This document shows positions 1 through 14,361 of a stretch of 64,000 nucleotides of DNA, piece by piece. The first letter of the stretch is position 1. Every line of letters begins with the position of its first letter. The DNA comes from Rhodanobacteraceae bacterium (GTDB lineage Bacteria > Pseudomonadota > Gammaproteobacteria > Xanthomonadales > Rhodanobacteraceae). The stretch lies in NCBI GenBank assembly GCA_016790075.1, contig JAEUPP010000045.1:1-64000 (forward strand). The letters are read 5' to 3'. Below the pieces are notes generated by a model. The model was not told the DNA's origin and did no database searches. It worked only from the letters and a program-made list of their open reading frames with translations. The position numbers and the translations under genes are program-made.

Positions 1-1629
1 CTGGTACTCGGGCAGCGCCTTGTGCTTGAACTTGTCGATGATGGCTTCCGGCTTGGCATCGGTAGTGACGCCGTGCCATGCCTCGACCAGGAAGTTCAAG
101 TCAGCGTAGTAAATGTTTTCACCGAAAGGCGGGTCGGTGAAGATGTAGTCGATGGAATCGTCGGCAAGCGGCAAGCGCGTCGCCGTGCCTGTTGTCACTG
201 CCACATTTGGGGCTGACTTGAAGGCTTGGAATGTCTTTGCCAACCGATCGAGCTTGCCGTCGAGGATATACCAAGGACTGCACTCAGCGTGCTGTGAAGC
301 GATGTAGTACACGCCAGTCAGATACTGATTGACTTGTGAGAAGCCAGTCGGGCGAAATCGGTTCAAAAGAGTAGCTGTCCAAATCGCCTGTTCCACCATG
401 AAAGTCAGGAACGCGCGAATGCGCGCATCGGGATGCGCTTGCGCCTTCTCCCACAACAAGCCCATCGCCTGTGCTGCGCGCGGCAAGTAGAAGTGGTGGA
501 CATGAGTGAATCCCTTAGGCGCAATTCGCGAGCCGTGGTACATGTCTTCAATCGGAAATCGACTCGTTGGCACGGACGCGGGAAGTGACAAACTCTCGAT
601 CTTCGCAAGCGTCGCCAAGTCCGCCGCGTCTGGAGCCTTTTCGTGCCGTCTCTTGCCGACCGTGTAGGCCACAATGGCAGGCTGAAACTTCACCCGTTGC
701 CATGACTGTCCCGTAGCGGGGTCGACTCGCGCTTCCAGTACCCGCTCCAGCCGGTCTTTATTCAAATCCGCGCTGCAATGCGGGCAGGGAAAGCTGTCGC
801 GCACGCGCTTACTTTCGTCCTCTAGCGCTTCTTCCAGGAAGTTCACGATGCCCGCGCATTCCGGACAACTGAACACTTCGCTCCATACCGTGTACTCGAT
901 GCGCCCCTTCGTCTTGCCATCACTGTGCAGCGTCTCGTACATCCAGCCGATGCCATGCTCTACAGACCTCAGCAATTGCTTACCTGCCTTGGCGAAGGCA
1001 TCCACGTTGAAAGGGATGTTGTAGTTCGCACCGATGAAGGTGGCGGCGGGCGACAGGTCGTTCAGCACGGCACGGCGAGCGCCCCATTTAGGAGCCGCAC
1101 GGCCCTCTTTCTTCCACGCAAGTTCCAGTCCGTGCCGGTAACTCGACGGAGCCGTCCCACACCACTGTGCAGCCACGCCGGTCATGCCCGAACCGGCGAA
1201 ACCGTCCAGCACCACATCGCCCGGCTGGGTGTAGTGCAGGATGGACGGCACGATGGCCAGGTGCGGCACCTTGGTGTGATAGCTGTGCGCCTTGTAGATG
1301 GCGTCGGTCTTGCCCACGCTCACATCAATCGCCAGCGGCTCGCGGCTGTACTTGGTGCCTGAGTCGTAGGGTTGGCCGTAGTGCGCTACAAAGTCCGCCA
1401 GCCACGGATTCGGACAGGCGGTGTAGTACGGTGGGTCGGACATGGCCAGGATGGCTGCATCCGTACCCTGTGGGAATCCCTCCTGCTTGCGAAACGCTGG
1501 GTCTTGAAGTTTTTCGGCAAGCAGCTTGCGGAAGTACTCTCGTCGAGCGTTGTCGCTGGCGAAGGTCTGGCCAAGGCATTCAACTGGGCCGGAGGCTTCG
1601 CTGCGCTGGTTGTGTAGGAGGTCATTCAT
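1..1629 (-). CDS. pglXI: BREX type 3 adenine-specific DNA methyltransferase, PglXI-type (3' end outside window)
   Basis: The first 543 codons are present and the reading frame runs off the left edge. The start is the ATG at 1629-1627, 16 bases after the previous gene. The protein has a DPPY motif at residues 65-68, an SAM-binding type FAGSG near residue 147, and a zinc-ribbon-like CPEC...CPHC pair in the middle. A second DPPF lies near residue 509, in a context (TDPPFGENIYYADL) like that of DUF1156 methylases. In BREX type 3 the pglX role is taken by such a methylase, which marks host DNA so that the defence complex spares it. Position directly downstream of brxF and brxC supports the assignment. 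The remaining core genes (brxHII, pglZ, brxA) would be expected to the left of base 1. The family call is strong; the exact symbol is inferred from context. Confidence 0.8.
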   Translation of the reverse strand, partial: MNDLLHNQRSEASGPVECLGQTFASDNARREYFRKLLAEKLQDPAFRKQEGFPQGTDAAILAMSDPPYYTACPNPWLADFVAHYGQPYDSGTKYSREPLAIDVSVGKTDAIYKAHSYHTKVPHLAIVPSILHYTQPGDVVLDGFAGSGMTGVAAQWCGTAPSSYRHGLELAWKKEGRAAPKWGARRAVLNDLSPAATFIGANYNIPFNVDAFAKAGKQLLRSVEHGIGWMYETLHSDGKTKGRIEYTVWSEVFSCPECAGIVNFLEEALEDESKRVRDSFPCPHCSADLNKDRLERVLEARVDPATGQSWQRVKFQPAIVAYTVGKRRHEKAPDAADLATLAKIESLSLPASVPTSRFPIEDMYHGSRIAPKGFTHVHHFYLPRAAQAMGLLWEKAQAHPDARIRAFLTFMVEQAIWTATLLNRFRPTGFSQVNQYLTGVYYIASQHAECSPWYILDGKLDRLAKTFQAFKSAPNVAVTTGTATRLPLADDSIDYIFTDPPFGENIYYADLNFLVEAWHGVTTDAKPEAIIDKFKHKALPEYQ

Positions 1630-1645: not shown

Positions 1646-3004
1646 TCAGAGCGCGTCGAGCTTGGCTCGGAGTCCGGGATACGAGTAATGGTCCGTTGCA
1701 TTGCCGCGATTCCGTTTGGTCATCTCATCCACAAATTCTTGCCAATGTGGCTTCGCTTGGTCGATCACAGCCTTGCTCAGCGCAAACACCGACTCCAGGA
1801 CAGTTGGTGTGCCCGCTGCTGCGTAGACTTGCCCGTTGTCTTTTACCGCGTCGAGCATTGCCTTGATGTCGTCCGCGCTCATCAATGGCGCGAGCGGGAC
1901 TATCAACGAGTTTCCGCGCTGTTCAGCAACTCGCCATGAGCCAGAGTCACCGTAGATGTGAATCGCTGGCGCTATGAATTCACGCCGTGGATTCTGCGAG
2001 ATGATGCCCACTTGGACATTTCGATCAAACGAATCGAACCGCGCGAGCAGAACGGCGGCCAGATCAGGGATGGCGAAGGCATCAAAAGCCGAGTGCACCT
2101 TGAGTGTCTCCGCATCGGCATCACGCAGCAGCTTCTTGAATCGAATGCGCGTTGGCTCCGGCAACCAGTCCCACACGCGGATATCACACTCGACAAAGGC
2201 GCTGATGCTCAGCAGCAATCCATCGGGGATAGCGTCGAACTTTCGTGAAACGTGATCTTTGGCCGCTTCGTCGTAGATTGCAGTTTTTGCTCTGGCGATT
2301 TCCCGCAGTGTTCGCGCAACCTGATGTCGTTGCCCGATGTACCGAGCTGATTCGCTGCCGAATGGAGCGCTTAGCAGAGACTTGATCAAGTTGACGACCA
2401 TCACGTCCTTCGCGCGGTCGAGATACTTGGTGCGGACAAACGTGCCGATGCTTTCGCCGTCCACTGGGAAGGATGGGCTCAGTAGATCCATGTGGAATCG
2501 CTCAATCGCGCTCTTACCTTGTAGCGGCGCATTGATCAGAAGGTGTTTCAGCGCATGGGTGATGTGAGTGCGAACCAGTTCCGGTGTCGGTTGAAACAGA
2601 GCGTCTTCCGTGGCGAAGGCAGGATGGGCGCACAGATGCCGATCCCTCTGCAAGCGATCCAAGTCCTCGTGCTCGTGGGGCGCAAAGAGCTGGAGCTTGG
2701 TGTTTGCCGTGGACAGCAAGCCGGACTCTATGCCCTGCAACTTCCTCACGTCGTTTTTCTGTATCGCTTGCTCCATCTCCTGCACGAACGCAGCGGCCGC
2801 AGCATCCCCATGCGCCGACAGCTCCTTGGCTTTGGCAATGATGTCGTAGTCCACTGCGATCCAAGTGGAGACGATGGCGGATCGCAAAGCTCCGCCGCGA
2901 TAGGCTGACAGGGCCTCACCAATCAGTCGTTTCGACTCGGGGTCGCGCACGGCCAACGTCAGCGAATCGATGTCCGTTAGGCCTTGACCGACAAAGGTGT
3001 TCAT
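1646..3004 (-). CDS. BREX-embedded protein with N-terminal HEPN-type domain (putative RNase)
   Basis: This 452-residue protein is encoded between the AlbA_2 gene, which it overlaps by four bases (ATGA), and the methyltransferase gene 16 bases downstream. The N-terminal 140 residues look helical, with a stretch '[20 protein letters not shown]' typical of HEPN helices. They end in RHLCAH at residues 122-127, which fits the catalytic RHxxxH (Rx4-6H) signature of HEPN endoribonucleases. The remaining ~300 residues are not recognised and show no signal peptide or membrane segment. HEPN RNases commonly act as toxins or abortive-infection effectors, so an RNA-cleaving back-up to BREX is plausible. 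The function is inferred from one motif plus context; a structural or regulatory HEPN-like protein is possible. Confidence 0.65.
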
Positions 3005-4875
3005 TTCTGCTCTCTCGTCAGGCCTGCGGCCTGTAGTTGTTCGTGCAGCAGCTTGAGCTGCACGCCCGCGTCGGTGAGCACGTAGCGTTGTTGCGACGAG
3101 CGAGGCTTGTCGGGGATGGTCAAGCGCAGCACGCCGCCGATGAGCAGCGGCTCCAGATGCTTGGCCACGAAGTGCGGGCGCTGGCGGTAGCCGGTGTGGG
3201 TCATCAGTTCAGCCAGCGAGCGCGGTACGTCGGCGTGGCTGACAATGCGCCACTGCACGCCCGTCAACCGATCAAGTGACCGATCAAGTCTCGGCTGCGC
3301 CGACCCGACTTGTTCGGTCACTTGATCGGTGGTGCTCTCTGATCGCGCTTCTGCGGCAGTAGACGAATTTTCCTGGCGAATCTCGGACTGTCCGGTCGTG
3401 CTGGGCAGGAAGCGGGCACGCAGGTGTTCGGCAAGACCGAACAAGTTGCCGGCGTCCCCCTGAGGCACAAGAAGCGCCTGTACGGTCAGCCTCTGCAGGA
3501 GCTGGCGGGCGTCCGCCCCGGAAAGGCCGGTGAGCGCCTTCACGTCGGTCAGGTCAATTTGGACTTTGCGGGTCAGGTAGGCGAAGACATCGGCTTCGTT
3601 CGCGGACAGGTGCGCCCCCAGGCTTGCTTGCGCCAGTAGCTGAGCCTCGGTGATGAGCTTTTCCTTGCGCAAGCGCAGGCGGAAGTTTTTTTCGGCTTTG
3701 TTGTTTTCGATTTCCGGCGGAATGTACCCCAGCCTGCGCCAGCCATCGAAAATGGCCGGCACGCCAGTTCCGCCCTGGTCGGATAGGCCGATTCGGCGGA
3801 AGGCGTTCACGATGCTGGGATTGCGCACCTCTTTGTCGCCGGGGTCGAGCAATTGCTCGCGCGACGCAAAGGCGTCACCGGGGTTAAAGAATTCGGTCTG
3901 GTCTCGAAAGAAACGGATAACCGGCACGCGAGTGGTGTCGCCGAAGTCCTGATGAATCAGTAGATTGATTGCGGCTTCGCGGAAAGAAATGTAGTCCGGC
4001 GGGTCGTCGTCGCGGCGCAGTGTGCCTGCGTCCACGGCGAAGGGCCGTTCGCTGTGGCGAAAGTAGAACTCGACAATGGCCTGCCACGCCTGGATGAGGT
4101 TGTCCTCCACGGTGATCCGGTCTGCCCATCGGACTGCGGAGTCGTAGTTGGCACTGGTGTGGCGGTAGAACTGAACGTCCGCCGCCATGCGCGGCAGAAC
4201 CTGTCGCACGTATTCGCCGCTGCCCAGCACGAGAACCGCGGCTCGGGTGGGACGCAGCACTCCACCTTGCTCGACAAGGAAGCCCCAGTTGCGCAGGAAT
4301 GCGGTGTCATCGGCGGCGGCGTCCCTGCCAGGGTTGCTGGCAGCGAAGCGAGCGCGATACCAACGCACGGAGGCTTCGTCGAAGCAGCGACTGGTGTCCA
4401 CATCCAGAGGTTCGGCGTCATACCGGGTGTTCGACGCATCGCGGATGAAGCGCAGCAGCTCGTCACCGGTGCATGTGTCGTCGCGCCCGCCGCGGCGGAC
4501 GTGGGCCTTCTTCGGGTTGCCATCGAGATAGACCGGCTTTTGTAGGCGAGCGGCCTCAGGTACGAAAAATGCCAAAACCGTGCCTTCGGGCAGCTGGTGC
4601 ACCTTGCCTTCGATCGACAGTTGAACGCTGACCTTCTTGTTGTCCCGAACTTGCCCGAGAAAGTCGTTCTGAACCTTGTCTGCATCGATGACGCCAGTGA
4701 CGGTGAATACACCGTTCGCTTGCTTCACACCGAAGACCAAATGGCCACCCGTCGTGTTGGCAAACGCGCTGACTGTCTCCAGCGCGGACTTGGGCATCGC
4801 CCAGGACGCTTCCTTGAACTCGATGTCGTTCCACTCAATGGATTGGAGCTTGGCGAGGAGTTCGTCTTTGGTCAT
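3001..4875 (-). CDS. Schlafen AlbA_2 domain protein embedded in BREX operon
   Basis: This is a 624-residue soluble protein. Residues ~15-150 carry the AlbA_2/Schlafen signature: EFKEA at 19-23, then [16 protein letters not shown] around residues 36-51. The middle region (200-420), with '[15 protein letters not shown]' and '[20 protein letters not shown]', matches the ATPase-like/RecG-C-terminal arrangement common in AlbA_2 'putative transcriptional regulators'. The C-terminus carries two winged-helix-like segments ('[20 protein letters not shown]' is one). A polar linker rich in S/T/E lies near residues 490-530. It starts four bases after brxC stops and overlaps the HEPN gene by four bases. 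AlbA_2 proteins include RNA-cleaving Schlafen relatives and regulators. Which applies here cannot be told from sequence. It is not one of the core BREX-3 genes. Confidence 0.75.
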
Positions 4876-4879
4876 GGAG

Positions 4880-7800
4880 TCACTCGATGATGAAACGCAG
4901 CTTGGTGGAATCCTTGCCCTTACAGCGCTCGTTCATGAAGGTGTCAAAGCGCTTGCGCAGGTCGTCCGGTGTGGCTGGCGAGCCGCCTTGCAGCAGCGCT
5001 TGCTTGATCTCATCGCCCTTGACCGCGATCTTCTCCAACCCTGACAACGCCTCCTGCACGGCGTTGGCGAACTCGGTGGTCATCCGGTCAGGCAGCTTGC
5101 GTGATGCCAGGAAGGCGTCGATCAGCTTTTTGGACGCGGGTGGCAATAGGCCTAGACTTTCCTGCGTGAACGGGTCTTCTAGGTTCTCCAGCAGCGTCTG
5201 CTGCCAGTTGGCCATCAACTGATCCAGATCGTCGTCCAGCTTGTGCAGCCGGTTGGCCGCTGGGATTAGCTCCAACTGCTCCGCAGAGGGACGGAACTGG
5301 CAGTGCGGGCAGACGGCCGTTGTGACCAGCGTGGGCTCGTCCAGCGAGGAGCAGCTCTTCAGACCGTTGAGCGATTCTTCGAATGTCGTGAGCTGGCTGG
5401 TGGGCATCAGCGACACTCCGGCCAGCACGCGTAACGCTTGCAAGCGGTCATCCTTGCGCAGGGCGTTTCGTGTCTTGTCCTCGGCCACGCCCAGCCGCGC
5501 CTTGCTGTGACTGGCAATGTAGGCGGTGATGTAGTCCTTCTTGAGCTGATTGAGCGTCTGTCGGTATTCGGCGGCATGCTCGGCTGTGCGATCCTGGCTC
5601 AACTTTTCCTGCATTGCCGTGCGGGCAGCTTCGGCCTGCTTCACCCACGGGTGCTCAGCAGGTAGCACCAACTGAGCCTGCGAAAGATAGGACGCCGTGC
5701 TGCCCAGTTCCGCCGCCACTTCGAGCAGACGCTCGACGGCGGCCAGGATCTCCAGATTTTTCTTCTGGCTATCGAGGGCTTCCTGCGTGACGCGTAGGTT
5801 CTTGAGCTTGCCGACGGTGTTGTATGGCGCCAGCGACTCGGTGAACTTCTTCAGCGAATCCAGCCGGGCGTGCCAGTCTTTGGCTTCTTCCTCGCGCAGC
5901 AGGTTCTGGCCCCAGAAACCGAGCTTGCCTTGCTGCAGGTCGGAGCCAGCCTTGAGGACGCGCGGCACCAGCGCGCTGACTTTCTCCTGCAGTTTGATGA
6001 CCGGCTCGGTGTCGCCCTGGCTGGCCTTCTGGGCCAAGCCGGACGGCAGGTCGAACAACTCGAACAAGGCGCGCAGCACCGCGAGGTTGATTTCCTTGGG
6101 CGCCTCGACGTGCTTGAACTGCTTGAGCTCTTCCAGCGAGCGTTCTGCAAGCTGCATCAGCTTGCCGGAGTCGATCTTGTCGCCGGTGATCGACAGCACG
6201 ATGTCGCCGGAGTAGACGAGGCCGCCCAGCACGGTAACCAAAAGATCGGGTTCCAGCCGGTACTTGATCGGCGCGAAATACTCGACGTCCGATGCGCCCG
6301 ACAGCAGTTCGCTGCGGTTGAGTACCTGACCGTGGCCCTTGGCCTTGAGGCGGTAGAGTACTTCCTGCGCGTAGCGTGAGTTGGCGGGATCGACGCGGTC
6401 ACCATCGAGCAGTTCCAGCGAATCGAGGATGGCTGCGGCATCCTTGGTGCGCGTGCCGCCGGCCAGGGCACGCAGGGCATTGCCTACCAGTTGCTTGCGG
6501 TTGGCCTCGGTGACCAACACCGAGAAGGTGGGGTACTCGGGAGAGATGTCAGCAAAGCGCTGGCCGAGTGCCAGGCCGGAGACAATGTTCACCACGTCGC
6601 GGAAGTTGACGCGCTCGTCCGAGCCCAGTCGGGCGCGGTCGCGCAGGGACACACCCTTGGACCAGTCCTGCAGCGTTTTGGTCTTGCCCTGGTAGGTGAC
6701 CTCGAACGCGGTCATCTGCTTTTCCTGCAGCCACTTGCTCATGGACCGCAGCGAATCCTGAGCCTTGGACAGGTAGATGGCTTTCGCGCCACCGCTGGCC
6801 GTAGACGCCAGATCGAGTGCCGCCGCGTATTGCGACAGGTAACGCCTGTAGTCCTCGTCCGGCGACTTCAGACGGAAGAACACCTCGTCGGCCTGGTTGT
6901 TGTCGCTGAACTTCGGCTTGTCGAAGGGCTGGATGAAGTAGATGTAGAAGTCGCGCTCGGGCTGGGCTGTGGGCCGGTCATTCGGGGCACCAAAGAACAG
7001 GTAGCCCATGCGTTCGACGCGGCGCTCCTGCCACTCGATCTGGTACTGCCAGATCTGGAAGCCGGGGTAACGCAGATCGTCGCTGCACTCCATCAGCGTT
7101 TTGATGGCGCTGTAATAGGCGCGATCGAGTGCGTCGTCCGACAGGGCTTCGGCGCGCTTTTCAATCTGCGCGTCGTAGTCGATGTCTTTCTTGAGGTCCA
7201 GGTAGTACTGCTCGGTGTCTGATGCCTTGGATATGAATTGGCCGTTGACGGTCTTCAATACTTCCCGCATGACGGTCTGGACCATCGACAACAGGTTCTC
7301 GGAGGGGTCGCCCGGCATGTCTTCAACGCCTGGCTGGAACAGGCACAAGGCGTCGCGCAGCTCGGCAGCCGTGGGGCCAATCGGCACATGGATGTCGCCG
7401 CCCGTGGTCAAACGGTGCACGGCCAACGCGTTGATGACGCGCAGCGCCATGGCCTTGTAGGCCGGGCGTGTGAAAGCCTGCTGTACGCGCGACTCCAGCA
7501 CTTCGGACACGCGCATGACCTCCTTGATGTTCGGGTCGGCGCGCAGGACCGAGTTGGCCTTGACGATGTTCCAGAAGCTCTCGTAGCTGATAAAGAGTGG
7601 TTTGTCGGCGGGCACTTCCCGATCGAGGATGGCCAGCATGGCAGCCTCGATGGTCTTGAGTGCGCCGCGCTTCTCGGTGAAGTGGATCTGCTCGAAGGTC
7701 TTCAGGTAATCCGGGTGAACCGGGAACAGACGCACGTACTCGTCCATCCGCTCGTTCATGGAACTATAGAACTTGGCGAATGGCGTGAGGTATTCGCGGA

Positions 7801-8620
7801 TCTTGTTCTGCTGGTCGGTCGTCTTCTTGAGCAGGCGCGCGGAGACGACGAAGCTGATGTCCTGGCGGTCGATCAGGATCTGGGTGAATCGCTCATTGAC
7901 GCGGCGCATGCTGTCGGCCACATGCTGGAAGCGCACGCTGTCGAAGATGGCTTCCTGCACACCCGCCACGAAGCGGAACTTCAAGTGTTTGGTGACTTCG
8001 CCGATCTGACGCAGGATGGCCAGGTCCTGGACCAGCTCGTGATCGCGGCGGGACTGGAGGTATTCCAGGAACTCGTCGACAACCAGAAGCACACCCTCGT
8101 CCGGGAATTTCTCCGCGAACGCAGCCATCATCTCCTCGAAGGAGTCCTTGTTGTTGAGCTCTTTGTCGGCAGTCGGGAACGTATAGTCGACGCCGATCTT
8201 TTCGAGGAAGCGCTCGAGCTGCAGGGTGATGATCTGACGCAGCGGCATCTGCAGCCCGCCCACCTCGATGCGCAGCACCTTGAAGCGGCCAGCGATCGGG
8301 GCAACCGCCTCGGCCACCTTGGGGTGGCGGATCATTGACGCGTACGCGGCGTTTTCAGCCACAAGCGACAGCACCGACATCAAGTGCGATTTACCGGTGC
8401 CGTAGTTGCCGACGATTAGCACGCCCTTGTGATCGACCGAGTTGTCGAAACTGAGCTGGGGAACCATGAGCTTGGAGATCCGCTCGGCCATGTCGTCGGA
8501 AATGACATAGGTCGCGACGAGCTTCTTGGCCTCGTTCGGGCGCCCAGCATCGAGCAGTTGAACGACTGACTCGATCTGCTCGAACTGGATCAGATCTCCG
8601 TATTTCATGTTCTTGGCCAT
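4880..8620 (-). CDS. brxC: BREX system P-loop ATPase BrxC (DUF6079-type)
   Basis: This 1246-residue cytoplasmic ATPase has a Walker [10 protein letters not shown] at 71-79 and a Walker B VLLVVDE at 177-183. A sensor-like '[11 protein letters not shown]' follows about 35 residues later. A CPHC pair lies near the C-terminus. Size and N-terminal sequence fit the large BrxC/PglY ATPase that is the scaffold of BREX complexes. The ATG at 8620 is 21 bases downstream of brxF, so the two are surely co-transcribed. BrxC is required for defence in characterised BREX systems, although its exact mechanical role is unsettled. No frameshift or truncation is visible. Confidence 0.9.
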
Positions 8621-8641: not shown

Positions 8642-9136
8642 TCAAATTTCGAGTACGACCACGCCGTCACGACTGTAGTCACGGTGTTCTGGATGGCTGA
8701 TGTCGGCGTATATCAAGCGATCACCGCGCAGCTCGCCAGGCCAGACGGCCACAACGCGTTTGGAGTGAGCCAGCCGCCTGACGAGGTCAAGTGGGTTGAT
8801 CTTCAGGCTGGGCTCGAACAGCAACTCGATGTTGTCAAGCAGCAGCGGGTCTTCCGTTCGTTCCCTGTCAGCGATCTCCCGCAACATGTCGCTTGCCGAG
8901 AAGCCTCGCTTGTTGTTCGGTGTCGCAGCCAAGCGGCGCCCCAGCTCCTGGCCAACATTGAGCGGCTCGATGCTGAGCTTCGCGCCAAGCTGTCTCAGCA
9001 GTCGGGTTTTCCCGCCATTGCTGGGGCCGACCAGTAGAATCAACTTGCTGTTCAGGTCGCAAACGTCGCTGACGAGTCGGTTGAGCTCACCAAGCGAGGC
9101 ATACTGAGTCACGCCGACGGTGGGAGCCGGTGTCAT
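8642..9136 (-). CDS. brxF: BREX-3 P-loop protein BrxF
   Basis: This is a 164-residue small P-loop NTPase with Walker A GPSNGGKT at 37-44 and a Walker B-like LLLDNIELLF ending near residue 107. The C-terminus 'PEHRDYSRDGVVVLEI' is typical of BrxF. BrxF is the hallmark of BREX type 3 and precedes brxC there, as here. Its ATG overlaps the stop codon of the preceding HTH gene (ATGA at 9136-9133). A longer in-frame reading upstream to 9571 exists, but it runs through unrelated DNA and the VPS10 remnant, so the internal ATG is preferred. Confidence 0.88.
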   Translation of the reverse strand: MTPAPTVGVTQYASLGELNRLVSDVCDLNSKLILLVGPSNGGKTRLLRQLGAKLSIEPLNVGQELGRRLAATPNNKRGFSASDMLREIADRERTEDPLLLDNIELLFEPSLKINPLDLVRRLAHSKRVVAVWPGELRGDRLIYADISHPEHRDYSRDGVVVLEI

Positions 9137-9348
9137 GGCTTGTCTCCCCTGAGCTTGCCCTCGTCGCACTTCACAATCCGACTGTCGATCCAACGATCCA
9201 GCTCCGCTCGCCGAAAGCGCCACGTGCCGCCCAACTTGAAGGCAGGGATTTGGCCGTTGGACGCCAATCGGTAGACCGTCCGCTTGCCGGCCTTCAGGTA
9301 CGCGGCCACCTCTTCCAGTGTCAGGATTTCGCTTTCGACGTTCGCCAT
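9133..9348 (-). CDS. Excisionase/MerR-type helix-turn-helix DNA-binding protein, probable BREX operon regulator
   Basis: This is a 71-residue protein. 'EILTLEEVAAYLKAGKRTVY' followed by 'GTWRFRRAELDRWI' is the classic HTH_17 excisionase-family fold: helix-turn-helix plus wing. It is the first gene of the operon and its stop overlaps the brxF start, so it is translationally coupled. A tandem 8-base repeat sits 30-50 bases upstream of its start and is a candidate binding site. The protein is probably an autoregulator of the BREX operon; an excisionase role for the island is the alternative. The ATG at 9348 is chosen because the longer in-frame start lies inside the gene remnant upstream. Confidence 0.8.
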   Translation of the reverse strand: MANVESEILTLEEVAAYLKAGKRTVYRLASNGQIPAFKLGGTWRFRRAELDRWIDSRIVKCDEGKLRGDKP

Positions 9349-9397: not shown

Positions 9398-9447
9398 ATC
9401 CACAGGGATGTCCCGCGCAGCATCATGGAGCCAAGGATTGACGTCGC

Positions 9448-9645
9448 CTTGGGTCGTGGGCCGTGCAGACGGGACATGGATCGCAGATGCGCCCTTCGCC
9501 TTCAGGGCGTCGTTGACTGGCGGCAGGTCTTTTGCGACGAGGGCACCAACGCGCGTGGCGACTTCGCTCATCTCCTTCTGCAGCGCATCGATGCTGGCCA
9601 GGTGGTGCGTGCCCGGCGCGCCGTCGTCGAAGAAGGTGCTCGGCC
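9448..9645 (-). pseudogene. Remnant: 3' end of a second VPS10/BNR-repeat protein gene
   Basis: On the minus strand this stretch reads 'HHLASIDALQKEMSEVA' and 'ALVAKDLPPVNDALKAKGA'. It closely matches the last ~60 residues of the complete VPS10-type protein encoded at 10365-13601. The DNA matches about 10475-10657 with scattered substitutions, so it is a diverged paralogous copy rather than a fresh duplication. It lacks everything upstream of those residues and merges directly into the yhcG-like remnant at ~9646. It marks the edge of the BREX island. Confidence 0.75.
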
Positions 9646-10364: not shown

Positions 10365-13300
10365 TCACCGAGCAATATGCTTCGCCTTCGCCCCACGCAG
10401 ATCAGTGCCGCGGCCGAATGAGGCGCCGCGCCAGGCCGCGAATGCGGCATTGAGCTCAGCGCTGGATACGTTGCTCTGGGCCACGGGTTGTGCAGGCGGG
10501 ACCTGGATCGCGGGTGCGCCCTTCGCCTTCAGGGCGTCGTTGACCGGCGGCAGATCCTTCGCGACGAGGGCGTCGAAGCGTGCGGCGACTTCGCTCATCT
10601 CCTTCTGCAGCGCATCGACGGTGGCCAGGTGGTACGCGCCGGGTGCGCCATCGTAGAACACGATCGCACCGTACACGGCGTCCAGCTTTTCGCGCAGGCG
10701 CTCCTCGCCGGTGATGGCGCCGCCTTCCTTCGTGGCGACGATCTCCTTGCGGATGGCGTCGGCCTTCTCGCCCAGCCCGGCCACCTTGCTGCGCGCCGCA
10801 TCACCTTCCGGGAGTTTCGCGCCGATGGCGGCGGCCTGGTCGCGGACGGCGTTGATACGCGCCATCAGGCCCGTCATCTCGCCGAACATGCCGTGCACAC
10901 GCATGGCGGCGTCGAATTGCGCCTTACGCTCGGCCACCGTCAGCTTCGTGCGCCGGTCCACCGAGACCTCCAGTGGTGCCTCGTAGACCTGCTTGTTCTT
11001 CGTCATGCGCACCGTGTACGTGCCCGGCACCACGCGCGGGCCGATCGTGCCGAAGTTGGCGAGTTGCGCCGCAGGCGGCACGACGGGCGGCTTCATGCGC
11101 ATCGACCACGTGACGCGGTTGAGGCCGCGGCGCTTGGACGCCGGCAGCGTCTCGATCACCTTGCCGTCGGGGTCGAGCACTTCGATCTTCAGGTCGCCGA
11201 AGAGGTGGCGCGTGCGCTGGTAGTAGGTGATGACCGCGGCGTTCGACGGGTTGTCGCCGACGAACTTGGCATCGCCCTCGACGCTGCCGCCGAAGCTGGC
11301 GATGCGTTGTTGCACGGGACGTGCGGCGACAAAGGCCGCGTCCCGGGCGAGCAGGGTGTCGTCGATCGAACGCAGCGGCGTGATGTCGTCGATGATCCAG
11401 ATGCCACGGCCGTGGGTGCCGATTACCAGGTCGGCATCGCGCGCCTGCACGGCCAGGTCGCGCACCGCGACGCTCGGGAAGTTGCCGCCCTTGAACTCGG
11501 CCCAGCGCGTACCGCCGTCGGTGGAGATCCACAGGCCGAACTCGGTGCCCACGAACAGGACATCGGGATCAACCGTGTCTTCCCTCAGCACGTGCGCGTA
11601 GCCGCGCAGCCCGTGCTCCTTGCCCGCGATCTTCTGCCAGCTGCGGCCGAAATCGCGCGTGCGGTACACGTAGGGATCCATGTCGCCCACGGTGTGGCGA
11701 TCGAAGGTTGCGTAAGCGGTGCCGGCGTCGTGCAGCGAGGCTTCGATCATGCTGACCCACGCGTTCTTCGGCAGCCCCTTGATGTTGCCAACCACGTTGC
11801 TCCACGACGTGCCGCCGTCGCGCGTGAGCTGCACGTTGCCGTCGTCGGTGCCGACCCAGATCACCTTGCCGTCTTTCGGTGACTCGCTGATCGAGTAGAT
11901 GGTCGTGTGCATCTCGGCCGCGGAGTTGTCGACCGTGATGCCGCCTGATTCCTCTTGCTTCTGCTTGTTCGGATCGTTGGTCGTGAGGTCGGGCGAGATA
12001 CGCTCCCAGTTCTGGCCCTGGTCGCGCGAGCGGAACAGGAACTGTGCGCCGTAGTAGATCGTGCCCTTCTCGTTCGGCGAGAGCTCGATCGGCGTGTTCC
12101 AGTTGTACCGTAGCTTTTCCTTGAAGCCGGCGGTGGGTGCAATGAAACGGGTCTGCTTCGTGTGACGGTTGACGCGCCCGAGGAAACCACCCTGGGATTC
12201 CGCGTAGAGGTAGTCCGGATCTGCCGGATCGGGGAACACCCAGAAACCGTCGCCGAAGAACACCGGCTCCCAGCGGGCATTCGTGATGCCGCCCGGATTC
12301 GCCGAATCGCCCACCCACGAGCCGTTGTCCTGCAAGCCGCCGTAGACCTGGTACGGATCCTGGTCATCGGCGCTCACATGGTAGAACTGTGAAATGGGTA
12401 GATTGTCACCTTTCCACCAGCGATTGCCGCCGTCGTAGCTCAGGAACAGGCCGCCGTCGTCGCCGCCGATGACGTGATTGGTGTTGTCGGGGTTGATCCA
12501 GAGGTCGTGCCAGTCGCCGTGTGCACCACCGCCCGTGGACGAGAAGCTCTTGCCGCCGTCGAGCGAGACGATCAGCGGCAGGTTCGGCTTGAAGATCTTG
12601 TCGGGATTCTTCGGGTCGACGATCAGGCGCGAGAAGTAGAATGGCCGCCAGACCATGGACTGGCTGCGGTCACCCTCGGTCCAGGTGCGGCCACCGTCGT
12701 CGGAACGGAACAGCGCGCTGCGCACGCCTTCGATCACGGCATACACCCGCTTCGGGTCACTCGGCGCGATCGTCACGCCGATGCGGCCCCAGGGCTTGGC
12801 CGGCAGGCCGTTGTCCTTGCCGGGCTCGATCGACGTGAACGACGTGCCGCCGTCGCGCGTCTCGAACAGGCCCGAATCGGACACGGCTTCGGGGCCCTCG
12901 CCACCGGAGCGGAACGTCCAGCCCTTGCGGCGGAAATCCCAGAGCGAGACCAACAGGTGGTCCGGGTTCGTCGCGTCCATGCTGATGTCGGCACAGCCTG
13001 TGGAGGCATTCGGCCCCTTGAGCGCGAGCGTCCAGTGGCGGCCGCCGTCGTGCGTGACGTACAGGCCGCGCGCCGTGGAGTCGCTCCACAGCTTGCCGGG
13101 CACACAGGCATAGACCGTGTCGGTGCGCTGCGGGTGCACGAGGATGCGCGAGATGCGCTCCGATTCGGGCAAGCCCAGGTACGTCCAGGTGTCGCCGCCG
13201 TCGGTCGACTTGTAGATGCCGTTGCCGATGGAGACGCTGTTGCGGGTCCACGATTCGCCGGTGCCCACCCACACGACCTGCGGGTTCTTCGGATCGATCG

Positions 13301-13601
13301 TGACGGCGCCGATGGACTGCACGGGCTGCTTGTCGAACACCGGCTTGAAGGTCGTGCCGCCATCGGACGACTTCCAGACGCCGCCGCTCGCCGCGCCGAC
13401 GTAGAGCAGCGTCTTGCCGTCGACGACGCGTGCGTCGAGTGCCGAGATGCGGCCGCTCATTGTCGCGGAGCCGATGTTGCGCGCGCCGAGGCCGGAGATC
13501 GTGCCGGCGTCGTAGCGCGCCGCCGCCGTGTCCTGCGCGGCCGCCGGAATCGAAAGGGCCGCGAGCGCTAGCGCCACGGCGAGGTTGTTTTTCATGCGCA
13601 T
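10365..13601 (-). CDS. Secreted VPS10/BNR-repeat (sortilin-like) beta-propeller protein
   Basis: This is a 1078-residue exported protein. An N-terminal signal peptide ('NNLAVALALAALSIPAAAQ') precedes many BNR/Asp-box-like repeats, such as SSDGGTTF, STDGGDTW, RSDDGGRTW and SYDGGNRWW. These build one or two large beta-propellers over residues ~30-770. The C-terminal ~300 residues hold an Ig-like segment and a helical coiled region. Relatives are annotated as glycosyl hydrolases or VPS10-domain proteins, but no catalytic activity can be assigned here. The start ATG at 13601 has GGAGG 8 bases upstream, which favours it over the longer in-frame reading to 13661. It begins 13 bases after the LolA-like gene, so the two probably form an operon that ends at the terminator near 10330. 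A diverged copy of its 3' end lies at 9448-9645. Confidence 0.85.
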   Translation of the reverse strand: MRMKNNLAVALALAALSIPAAAQDTAAARYDAGTISGLGARNIGSATMSGRISALDARVVDGKTLLYVGAASGGVWKSSDGGTTFKPVFDKQPVQSIGAVTIDPKNPQVVWVGTGESWTRNSVSIGNGIYKSTDGGDTWTYLGLPESERISRILVHPQRTDTVYACVPGKLWSDSTARGLYVTHDGGRHWTLALKGPNASTGCADISMDATNPDHLLVSLWDFRRKGWTFRSGGEGPEAVSDSGLFETRDGGTSFTSIEPGKDNGLPAKPWGRIGVTIAPSDPKRVYAVIEGVRSALFRSDDGGRTWTEGDRSQSMVWRPFYFSRLIVDPKNPDKIFKPNLPLIVSLDGGKSFSSTGGGAHGDWHDLWINPDNTNHVIGGDDGGLFLSYDGGNRWWKGDNLPISQFYHVSADDQDPYQVYGGLQDNGSWVGDSANPGGITNARWEPVFFGDGFWVFPDPADPDYLYAESQGGFLGRVNRHTKQTRFIAPTAGFKEKLRYNWNTPIELSPNEKGTIYYGAQFLFRSRDQGQNWERISPDLTTNDPNKQKQEESGGITVDNSAAEMHTTIYSISESPKDGKVIWVGTDDGNVQLTRDGGTSWSNVVGNIKGLPKNAWVSMIEASLHDAGTAYATFDRHTVGDMDPYVYRTRDFGRSWQKIAGKEHGLRGYAHVLREDTVDPDVLFVGTEFGLWISTDGGTRWAEFKGGNFPSVAVRDLAVQARDADLVIGTHGRGIWIIDDITPLRSIDDTLLARDAAFVAARPVQQRIASFGGSVEGDAKFVGDNPSNAAVITYYQRTRHLFGDLKIEVLDPDGKVIETLPASKRRGLNRVTWSMRMKPPVVPPAAQLANFGTIGPRVVPGTYTVRMTKNKQVYEAPLEVSVDRRTKLTVAERKAQFDAAMRVHGMFGEMTGLMARINAVRDQAAAIGAKLPEGDAARSKVAGLGEKADAIRKEIVATKEGGAITGEERLREKLDAVYGAIVFYDGAPGAYHLATVDALQKEMSEVAARFDALVAKDLPPVNDALKAKGAPAIQVPPAQPVAQSNVSSAELNAAFAAWRGASFGRGTDLRGAKAKHIAR

Positions 13602-13614
13602 GGTCGTGGCCTCC

Positions 13615-14361
13615 TCACTTCGATGCAGCGGGGGAGGCCGGGAACGCGAACTTCGCGTCATCGACCGGGACGTTCACCTCGGCCTTCTCGAGCGTGATCT
13701 TCTGCTGCTTGGGCGCGCCTTTCGGCCCGCTCTCGATCGAGAACGGCATATACACGCCGGCGACTTTCTCATAGTTGCCCAGATCACTCTCGAACGCCTG
13801 CTCGGCACCGCGCACCTTGCGCTGCGTCACCGTGCGGATCTCAAGAAAGAAGTCGGGATCGAAGTAGAAGTACTTCACGTCCCCGTCCTTCTCGCTCACC
13901 TTGAGCTTGTGCGCCTCGGTGCCGTCGACGTCCTCGGTGCCGAGGTATTCGATCGTGCTGCCTTTCTCGCGCCAGTCGACGAGCGGGCCGTCGATGTCGG
14001 CGTCGTCGATCAGTCCCTTGCTGTCGTCGGCCGACAGCTTTTCGGGATCCTTGCGGCCGCCGAACGGCTGGATCTGCCAGCCTTCGGTGCCGTCGTAGGC
14101 TTGTACCGACGTCATGCCCTGCAACGAGGCTTCCTGCCGGACCTTGCCGGTGCGGCTGACGATTGTGTCGAGCGAGAGGTCGACTGAGAAATCGCCGGTG
14201 AAGGACAGCTTGCCGGTCGTGCGCAGCGATCCGATCGCCTTGATCGCATCGCGCCCTCCCTTCGCCTCGATATTCTTCGCAATCAGCTCCTCGGCTGTCA
14301 TGGCGCTGGCCGCGCCCGAGGCCGCGAGCAGCAGCGCGCACAAGCACGTGCATTTGTGCAT
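13615..14361 (-). CDS. Periplasmic LolA-like / outer-membrane-lipoprotein-sorting-type protein
   Basis: This is a 248-residue protein with a signal peptide ('CLCALLLAASGAASA'). It then shows 'AEELIAKNIEAKGGRDAIKA', the usual opening of LolA-like periplasmic carriers, and a beta-rich body with 'YDGTEGWQIQPFGG' and 'YFYFDPDFFLEIR'. Such proteins fold as half-barrels that bind lipid or lipoprotein moieties, but this group is uncharacterised. It lies immediately upstream of the VPS10-type gene (13-base gap), and the two secreted products may act together. Confidence 0.7.
   Translation of the reverse strand: MHKCTCLCALLLAASGAASAMTAEELIAKNIEAKGGRDAIKAIGSLRTTGKLSFTGDFSVDLSLDTIVSRTGKVRQEASLQGMTSVQAYDGTEGWQIQPFGGRKDPEKLSADDSKGLIDDADIDGPLVDWREKGSTIEYLGTEDVDGTEAHKLKVSEKDGDVKYFYFDPDFFLEIRTVTQRKVRGAEQAFESDLGNYEKVAGVYMPFSIESGPKGAPKQQKITLEKAEVNVPVDDAKFAFPASPAASK

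Follow-up and report, generated by a model that had tools for sequence, protein, structure and literature searches.

Schlafen-type and HEPN-type genes as probable defence cargo in a variable slot beside the methylase gene of a BREX type 3 operon

The bacteriophage exclusion (BREX) type 3 operon of a Rhodanobacteraceae bacterium carries two additional genes, encoding a 624-aa Schlafen-type and a 452-aa HEPN-type protein, between brxC and the methyltransferase gene pglXI, which raises the question of whether the pair defines a variant of the system or represents cargo placed within it. The DNA analysed here (the window) comprises the first 64,000 nucleotides of contig JAEUPP010000045.1 (C10; assembly GCA_016790075.1; 5.6 Mb genome), window base 1 being the contig end. 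The operon lies on the minus strand and is transcribed toward base 1 in the order small helix-turn-helix (HTH) gene, brxF, brxC (DUF6079), Schlafen gene, HEPN gene and pglXI (Table 1). The three core genes brxF, brxC and pglXI are all present in BREX-3 order, with pglXI incomplete at the contig end, where its open reading frame (ORF) exits the window. A reading made from the sequence alone (the sequence-only reading) had described the two genes as tightly packed between core genes, and the ORF coordinates agree: the Schlafen gene starts 4 nt past the brxC stop codon, the two ORFs share the four bases ATGA, and the pglXI ORF begins 16 nt past the stop codon of the HEPN gene. Taken together, the evidence makes it probable that a hypervariable slot holds both genes as embedded defence cargo, that the block containing them is exchanged between BREX-3 backbones, and that the HEPN protein is an abortive ribonuclease.

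The 452-aa protein matched the PADLOC model PD-T7-3 (E 5e-43, residues 11-397) and PDB entry 9wxf (E 6e-23 with phmmer, 1e-65 with a family profile). The PDB chains matched carry the names 'Dandelion' and 'Dandelion-hepn' (9wxf, 9wx2). Its single Pfam match was below threshold (E 0.07), and neither Pfam nor NCBIfam assigns it to a family. When aligned with 16 relatives of down to 22% identity, whose named members are from Pseudomonadota and Actinomycetota, residues R41, W48, D54, K58, E93, R122, H127, P128, E142 and R145 were invariant (16/16). R122, H127 and P128 were again invariant in a second set of 22 relatives (22/22), 18 of which were new and four common to the first set. R122-x4-H127 has the form R-x4-H, which we take to be the HEPN ribonuclease motif R-x4-6-H. 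PD-T7-3 is also placed under HEPN in a Mol Microbiol review (PMC10952713). The PADLOC match, the PDB name and the invariant R-x4-H-P uphold the HEPN call of the sequence-only reading.

The call of a Schlafen/AlbA_2 protein was likewise confirmed by Pfam, with matches to AlbA_2 (PF04326, E 2e-15), HATPase_c_4 (E 3e-11) and Fic-like_C (E 8e-12). Among 13 aligned Schlafen-type proteins, E14 and E19 (E-x4-E) as well as N40 and the GHKL-type positions E300, N304, H308 and D310 were invariant (13/13). Both genes are under purifying selection, with dN/dS values of 0.06-0.13 for the HEPN gene (four loci; dS up to 2.3, partly saturated) and 0.12-0.21 for the Schlafen gene (four loci), some dS values exceeding 1 and rendering the ratios uncertain. 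Because these ratios are at most 0.21, the possibility that the two genes are chance ORFs was ruled out.

The Schlafen coding sequence also contains a hairpin (Table 1) with a minimum free energy (MFE) of -50.3 kcal/mol (z -7.7), built from inverted pairs of a 12-nt unit. It was found at the equivalent site in L003, L064 and L079 (z -5.0 to -6.1) and in weaker form in L065 (z -2.9), and was missing from five other Schlafen copies tested (the second copy in L003, L005, L066, L068 and L080). Both sides were changed in 7 of the 23 pairs (five loci compared). Four of five covariation measures exceeded all 500 shuffles, the fifth being the count of pair types. The exact pattern occurred in 2/338 order genomes, each time within the Schlafen gene. 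The hairpin may be an RNA element, a DNA palindrome or a product of palindrome correction.

For a survey of gene content, BREX-3 loci were gathered by BrxC alone (full-length DUF6079), which was found in 4/398 order, 6/398 phylum and 6/342 class genomes (window included in each count; in two pieces in G920 and G1039), in seven plasmid records and in one viral contig. A BrxC scan of 48 genomes from a different class added no locus, and a search of E. coli genomes with Klebsiella brxC returned none. Outside the window, 21 BREX-3 loci were obtained, with fragments G545 and G971 not counted. The slot counts omit G980 (contig ends), a Klebsiella plasmid (pglXI cut short) and an Aeromonas record (pglXI in pieces) and treat two near-identical E. 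faecium plasmids as one, which gives a final sample of 17 loci. Three loci selected with the HEPN protein (L003, L004 and L005) stand outside this sample. Intervals were scored as occupied when the gap was 400 nt or more. By this measure, the brxC-pglXI interval (first slot) was occupied in 13/17 loci and the pglXI-brxHII interval (second slot) in 8/15, compared with 2/17 for brxF-brxC, 0/13 for brxHII-pglZ and 0/9 for pglZ-brxA. The flanks of pglXI were filled in 21/32 cases versus 2/39 elsewhere (Fisher p 5e-8, the intervals within one locus not being independent). The two brxF-brxC insertions comprised a helicase/PLD protein (L104) and an extra pglXI (L069, 15931-19005); the latter locus seems to carry two BREX-3 methylases.

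Many unrelated genes were found in these intervals. A Schlafen gene occupied the first slot in 8/17 loci (L064, L065, L066, L068, L069, L079, L080 and L104), the proteins of L069 and L104 being just 21-22% identical to the window Schlafen. The remaining first-slot cargo consisted of HEC-01 (L062), PDC-M07 (L067), Mrr_cat beside the Schlafen gene (L069), DUF1828 (PDC-M24B; L070), Septu PtuA/PtuB (L109), Phd/VapC-like genes read by eye (L108) and, behind the Schlafen gene, a GHKL-ATPase gene (L065) or a gene for a 249-aa protein (L064). The second slot contained HEC-02 (L062 and L108, with only the first gene scanned in L108), HEC-03/Nsn (L067 and L069), Ppl together with a Schlafen and further ORFs (L070), a PIN protein (L109), or ~500-aa proteins with a weak relation to PD-T7-3 (L104 and L107). 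Most cargo genes scanned matched known or candidate defence families. The GHKL-ATPase proteins in the first slots of L005 (8040-10001, 654 aa) and L065 (8465-10348, 628 aa) have no PADLOC family and are candidates for unnamed defence genes. The 249-aa protein of L064 (7887-8636) lies directly behind the Schlafen gene, contains an RNGFSESH motif and gave no Pfam or PADLOC match; it is HEPN-like by eye and possibly an unrelated HEPN protein in the place of the window HEPN.

A single scan of genome contigs with the window HEPN protein returned only three relatives (75-86% identity), all in BREX-3 loci and immediately upstream of pglXI. L003 (Accumulibacter metagenome-assembled genome, MAG) carries HEC-01, Schlafen and HEPN genes before pglXI and a second Schlafen gene after it; L004 (Comamonas MAG) carries the HEPN gene before and HEC-01 after; L005 (Diaphorobacter caeni) has HEC-01, a GHKL protein and the HEPN gene before and a Schlafen gene after. 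With the window included, the HEPN gene is thus immediately upstream of pglXI in 4/4 loci, a placement that does not represent a rate because L003-L005 were found using the HEPN query. The sequence-only reading had suggested that the pair, if recurrent, would mark a distinct BREX-3 subtype, which the neighbourhood survey did not support. The exact pair recurs in L003, so that by the refuting condition set in that reading (no other BREX locus with the pair) the idea is not refuted outright, but the pair was absent from all 17 BrxC-selected loci and present in one of the three HEPN-selected ones. A fixed subtype set by the pair was therefore rejected; moreover, a Dandelion-type HEPN gene occurred in 0/17 BrxC-selected loci.

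Comparison of related loci showed that the methylase departs from the remainder of the operon. L004 and L063 share 97% identity in BrxF, 95% in BrxC, 97% in BrxHII, 94% in PglZ and 97% in BrxA, but 63% in PglXI. L078 and L080 share 95% in BrxC and 92% in BrxHII, but 59% in PglXI, with a Schlafen gene in L080 only. The window and L063 are 96% identical in BrxC and 45% in PglXI, and only the window has the Schlafen/HEPN cargo. With L065, by contrast, the window shares 85% identity in PglXI and 82% in BrxC. In a blastn comparison of window and L063, 90.6% homology ended within one base of the brxC stop codon, beyond which the next similarity was weak (70%) and located at the pglXI start. Homology also broke at the brxC stop codon in the pairs L004-L063, L004-L005, L003-L064 and L078-L080. 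On the right side, full homology resumed near the brxHII start or within the last third of pglXI; the PglXI proteins of L004-L063 and L078-L080 are 75-95% identical from approximately residue 720, with 22-45% identity in the middle. Window and L003 have one 4-kb stretch in common (82% at the DNA level), running from the Schlafen gene through the HEPN gene into pglXI, and are somewhat less alike in brxC (79%).

The PglXI and BrxC trees conflict. For groups picked after viewing the identity table and the trees, approximately unbiased (AU) tests rejected {window, L063, L004, L005} (p 1e-9) and {L078, L080} (p 7e-39) for PglXI, and {window, L065} (p 2e-63) and {L005, L003} (p 1e-6) for BrxC. Because the trees conflict strongly and the similarity of PglXI can exceed that of BrxC (window-L065), mere fast evolution of the recognition domain was ruled out as the source of PglXI divergence. 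The tree conflict, together with the loss of homology where brxC ends, makes it appear that methylase and cargo have been exchanged.

The HEPN family was detected in 7/398 phylum-sample genomes (window included), 48/72,556 plasmid records, 2/50,697 phages (one being P2-EC30) and 21 IMG/VR loci (three of them duplicates within the compared segment); viral contigs gave no match to the single window HEPN protein. Outside the BREX set, 37 HEPN loci were inspected: six from genomes (two of them, L076 and L077, weak matches), those of 10 of the 48 plasmid records and the 21 from IMG/VR. At E 1e-6, the stretches of DNA fetched around these loci, some of them shortened by contig ends, gave no match to a BREX core gene, the sole exception being a weak PglXI-like methylase match in L075 (54 bits). 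Because of this, the HEPN family is found without BREX in this sample. Neither was a Schlafen match obtained in the same stretches (phmmer, E 1e-6), and no BREX core was seen around Schlafen relatives in IMG/VR (18 loci). A dependence of the HEPN protein on BREX is also at odds with reports of E. coli being protected by PD-T7-3 and by BxaP in the absence of BREX (PMC9519451, PMC10799925).

According to the explanation that we favour, the hypervariable slot would open with the brxC stop codon and lie just upstream of pglXI, and the exchangeable block would consist of the cargo together with a part of pglXI that includes at least its N-terminal and target-recognition regions. Recombination would move this block, while brxF, brxC, brxHII, pglZ and brxA would stay together. 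The HEPN protein would most likely act as PD-T7-3 and BxaP are thought to act, as a self-contained ribonuclease that is idle until infection and would then cut RNA and stop the growth of the infected cell. The Schlafen protein would probably do likewise or control the HEPN protein, with its GHKL ATPase and winged helix as a putative sensor. Placement in the operon would mean common expression and a further barrier should a phage block BREX. Probably, both genes encode backup effectors and are expressed together. The RNA-cleaving backup proposed by the sequence-only reading agrees with what has been argued in print about effectors embedded in BREX (PMC12839542, PMC10799925).

Several observations weigh against this explanation. 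The slot sample is small (17 loci) and comes nearly entirely from the window's own phylum, and the pglXI-brxHII interval of the window operon itself falls into the assembly gap between contigs C10 and C12. The trees were obtained by quick searches. With PglXI residues 1-160 alone, {window, L063, L004, L005} was still rejected (p 1e-4), but this tree has flagged long branches and {L078, L080} was not rejected (p 0.056). A Schlafen gene was found in 11/14 loci of one PglXI class versus 1/7 of the remainder, but this link was not significant over independent pairs (three pairs, starred branches). Pfam and NCBIfam gave the 452-aa protein no HEPN model match at E values up to 1, and its predicted HEPN fold derives from sequence comparison. 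Human SLFN13 has three acidic catalytic residues. An acid at the presumed third position is not conserved in the alignment of the Schlafen branch, and because of this the Schlafen protein may bind RNA rather than cut it.

An alternative is that the Schlafen protein, with its AlbA_2 domain, GHKL ATPase and winged helix, is a transcription regulator of the operon or an RNA-binding chaperone and not a nuclease. Its winged-helix-like C-terminus, the invariant E300/N304/H308/D310 next to an AlbA_2 part without a conserved third acid, and the covarying hairpin within its gene, a possible autoregulatory site, would fit such a role, which we nevertheless regard as doubtful, given that E-x4-E is invariant (13/13) and that the placement of the Schlafen gene varies (first slot, second slot, both or absent), unlike that of a dedicated regulator. 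A further reading, which we hold rather unlikely, takes the exchange one step further: pglXI and the toxin-like genes directly before it would enter conserved backbones as one cassette, with its left edge at the end of brxC, and the Schlafen/HEPN pair would act as a guard that senses when its own methylase is lost, inhibited or mismatched. Each specificity switch would then carry a matched suicide response.

An obligate two-gene system (sensor and effector, or effector and antidote) that defines a BREX-3 subtype is improbable. The 4-base overlap of the window recurs in L003 (83% and 86% identity between the corresponding genes), L005 has both families, in different slots, and L104 combines a Schlafen gene in the first slot with a weakly PD-T7-3-like protein in the second. 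However, the HEPN gene of L004 comes without a Schlafen match, a Schlafen gene without a Dandelion-type HEPN gene fills the first slot in 8/17 loci, and the 37 HEPN loci outside BREX lack a Schlafen match. HEPN and Schlafen families include toxins. The pair could in principle be a selfish passenger of the addiction type, keeping the methylase cassette or the island in place instead of acting against phage, and the same slots do contain a Phd/VapC-like pair (L108) and the PIN protein of L109. We consider this very improbable, as the window has no antitoxin-like gene between brxC and pglXI besides the pair, and PD-T7-3 and BxaP, expressed on their own, confer phage protection (PMC9519451, PMC10799925).

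The interpretation as embedded, exchangeable cargo was compared with published work, represented by its accessible portions. PD-T7-3 protects E. coli, acting more strongly against T-even phages than against T7 (Vassallo et al. 2022, PMC9519451). The window protein belongs to the same sequence family as PD-T7-3/Dandelion (PDB 9wxf, 9wx2, 9wwz) and retains R-x4-H-P, but is embedded between the Schlafen gene and pglXI, whereas the non-BREX-3 relatives inspected have no BREX operon around them; a literature search found no paper on 'Dandelion'. BxaP (Nat Commun 2024, PMC10799925), which has a PD-T7-3-like predicted structure, likely acts by abortive infection, is active in E. coli without BREX and was reported in 21/7308 BREX MAGs. 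It resembles the window HEPN in being embedded in BREX-3 next to pglXI, a likeness drawn from its description and not from its sequence, but lies between pglXI and brxHII instead of between brxC and pglXI. L107 (10118-11602) and L104 (13182-14681), both of the window's class, encode ~500-aa proteins that are 75% alike, lie between pglXI and brxHII and match the HEPN family profile only weakly (E 3e-12 for L104, 7e-13 for L107); they are candidate BxaP relatives.

A Schlafen protein with a minimal histidine kinase and a winged HTH, the architecture of the window Schlafen, is counted among the backup RNases found next to BREX/BR cores (at least 1017 taxa; Rakesh & Krishnan 2026, PMC12839542), along with stand-alone HEPN modules and a backup-effector model; the available portions of the main text give no map of pglXI slots and no exchange of methylase and cargo. 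Ocr is described there as a suppressor of BREX, and a figure of 702 taxa (77%) given there corresponds to about 900 taxa with BREX-3 loci. A 2024 preprint by Payne et al. (cited in PMC12255303 and PMC12988326) concerns guilt-by-embedding, or Hma-embedded, candidates, which are defence genes inside other defence operons. Several BREX-3 cargo genes similarly match PADLOC HEC/PDC families, the difference being that the host operon is BREX-3 and that homology is lost where brxC ends. In a type I restriction-modification operon, DarTG2 occupies a suspected recombination hotspot between hsdS and hsdR (PMC12255303); it is likewise a toxin-type module within a modification operon, but the system and the gene families differ. 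The Salmonella StySA system (BREX type 1) has accessory ATPase and DUF4435 genes and a pglX diverged from its E. coli counterpart (PMC9009780), and for an Antarctic cyanobacterium a regain of pglX through gene transfer is mentioned (PMC9716671). Neither is BREX-3, and no block of methylase plus cargo is described in the portions available. Embedded BREX effectors, their Schlafen and HEPN classes and a PD-T7-3-like BxaP in BREX-3 are thus already published. Slots flanking pglXI and an exchange of BREX-3 methylase and cargo were not found described in the accessible parts of PMC12839542, PMC10799925, PMC9716671, PMC12255303, PMC9009780 and PMC12707154, a selection that leaves subscription papers, preprints and supplements mostly uncovered.

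Table 1. Positions of the BREX-3 operon genes and sequence elements in the window.
Feature	Position	Strand	Basis or remark
pglXI, BREX-3 methyltransferase	1..1629	-	543 aa present, contig end cuts gene; 85% identity to L065 PglXI
PD-T7-3 / 'Dandelion' family HEPN-type protein, 452 aa	1646..3004	-	PADLOC and PDB matches, dN/dS
R122-x4-H127-P128 motif (HEPN R-x4-H)	2621..2641	-	Invariant among aligned relatives
Schlafen AlbA_2 + HATPase_c_4 (GHKL-type) + C-terminal winged-helix-like (Fic-like_C), 624 aa	3001..4875	-	Pfam
64-nt near-palindrome / 23-bp hairpin within Schlafen coding sequence	3267..3330	-	MFE, paired changes
brxC (DUF6079)	4880..8620	-	Pfam E 0; stop codon = left edge of exchangeable block
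brxF, 164 aa	8642..9136	-	NF033453 E 6e-50; start position from sequence
Small HTH_17 / MAD1-like DNA-binding protein, operon head	9133..9348	-	PF12728 E 8e-19; start position from sequence

The brxF ORF as listed, to position 9571, is open too far upstream, NF033453 covering only its residues 162-309. The small HTH protein scored 77.1 bits to NF047737 (cut-off 80). At the end of contig C12, brxHII (cut by the contig end), pglZ and brxA were found in BREX-3 order, and we infer a C10-C12 join that bridges the operon halves. Upstream of the operon, a 191-nt direct repeat (84% identity) was found at positions 9441-9631 and 10468-10658. It corresponds to the 3' end of a neighbouring gene (10365-13661; repeat-rich, beta-propeller-like by eye), and the other copy (9441-9631) sits on the operon side of an apparently truncated DUF1016/YhcG-like (PDC-S02) gene. 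The repeat is possibly an insertion scar at the operon head.

For BREX-3, these results would mean that specificity and backup effectors are exchanged at the slots flanking pglXI, and a list of additional BREX-associated genes would give way to a rule that can be tested, namely that cargo slots flank the specificity-bearing methylase. The slots would be a place to seek new defence genes and, as a natural experiment, could show whether a backup effector is bound to one methylase or travels as an independent passenger.

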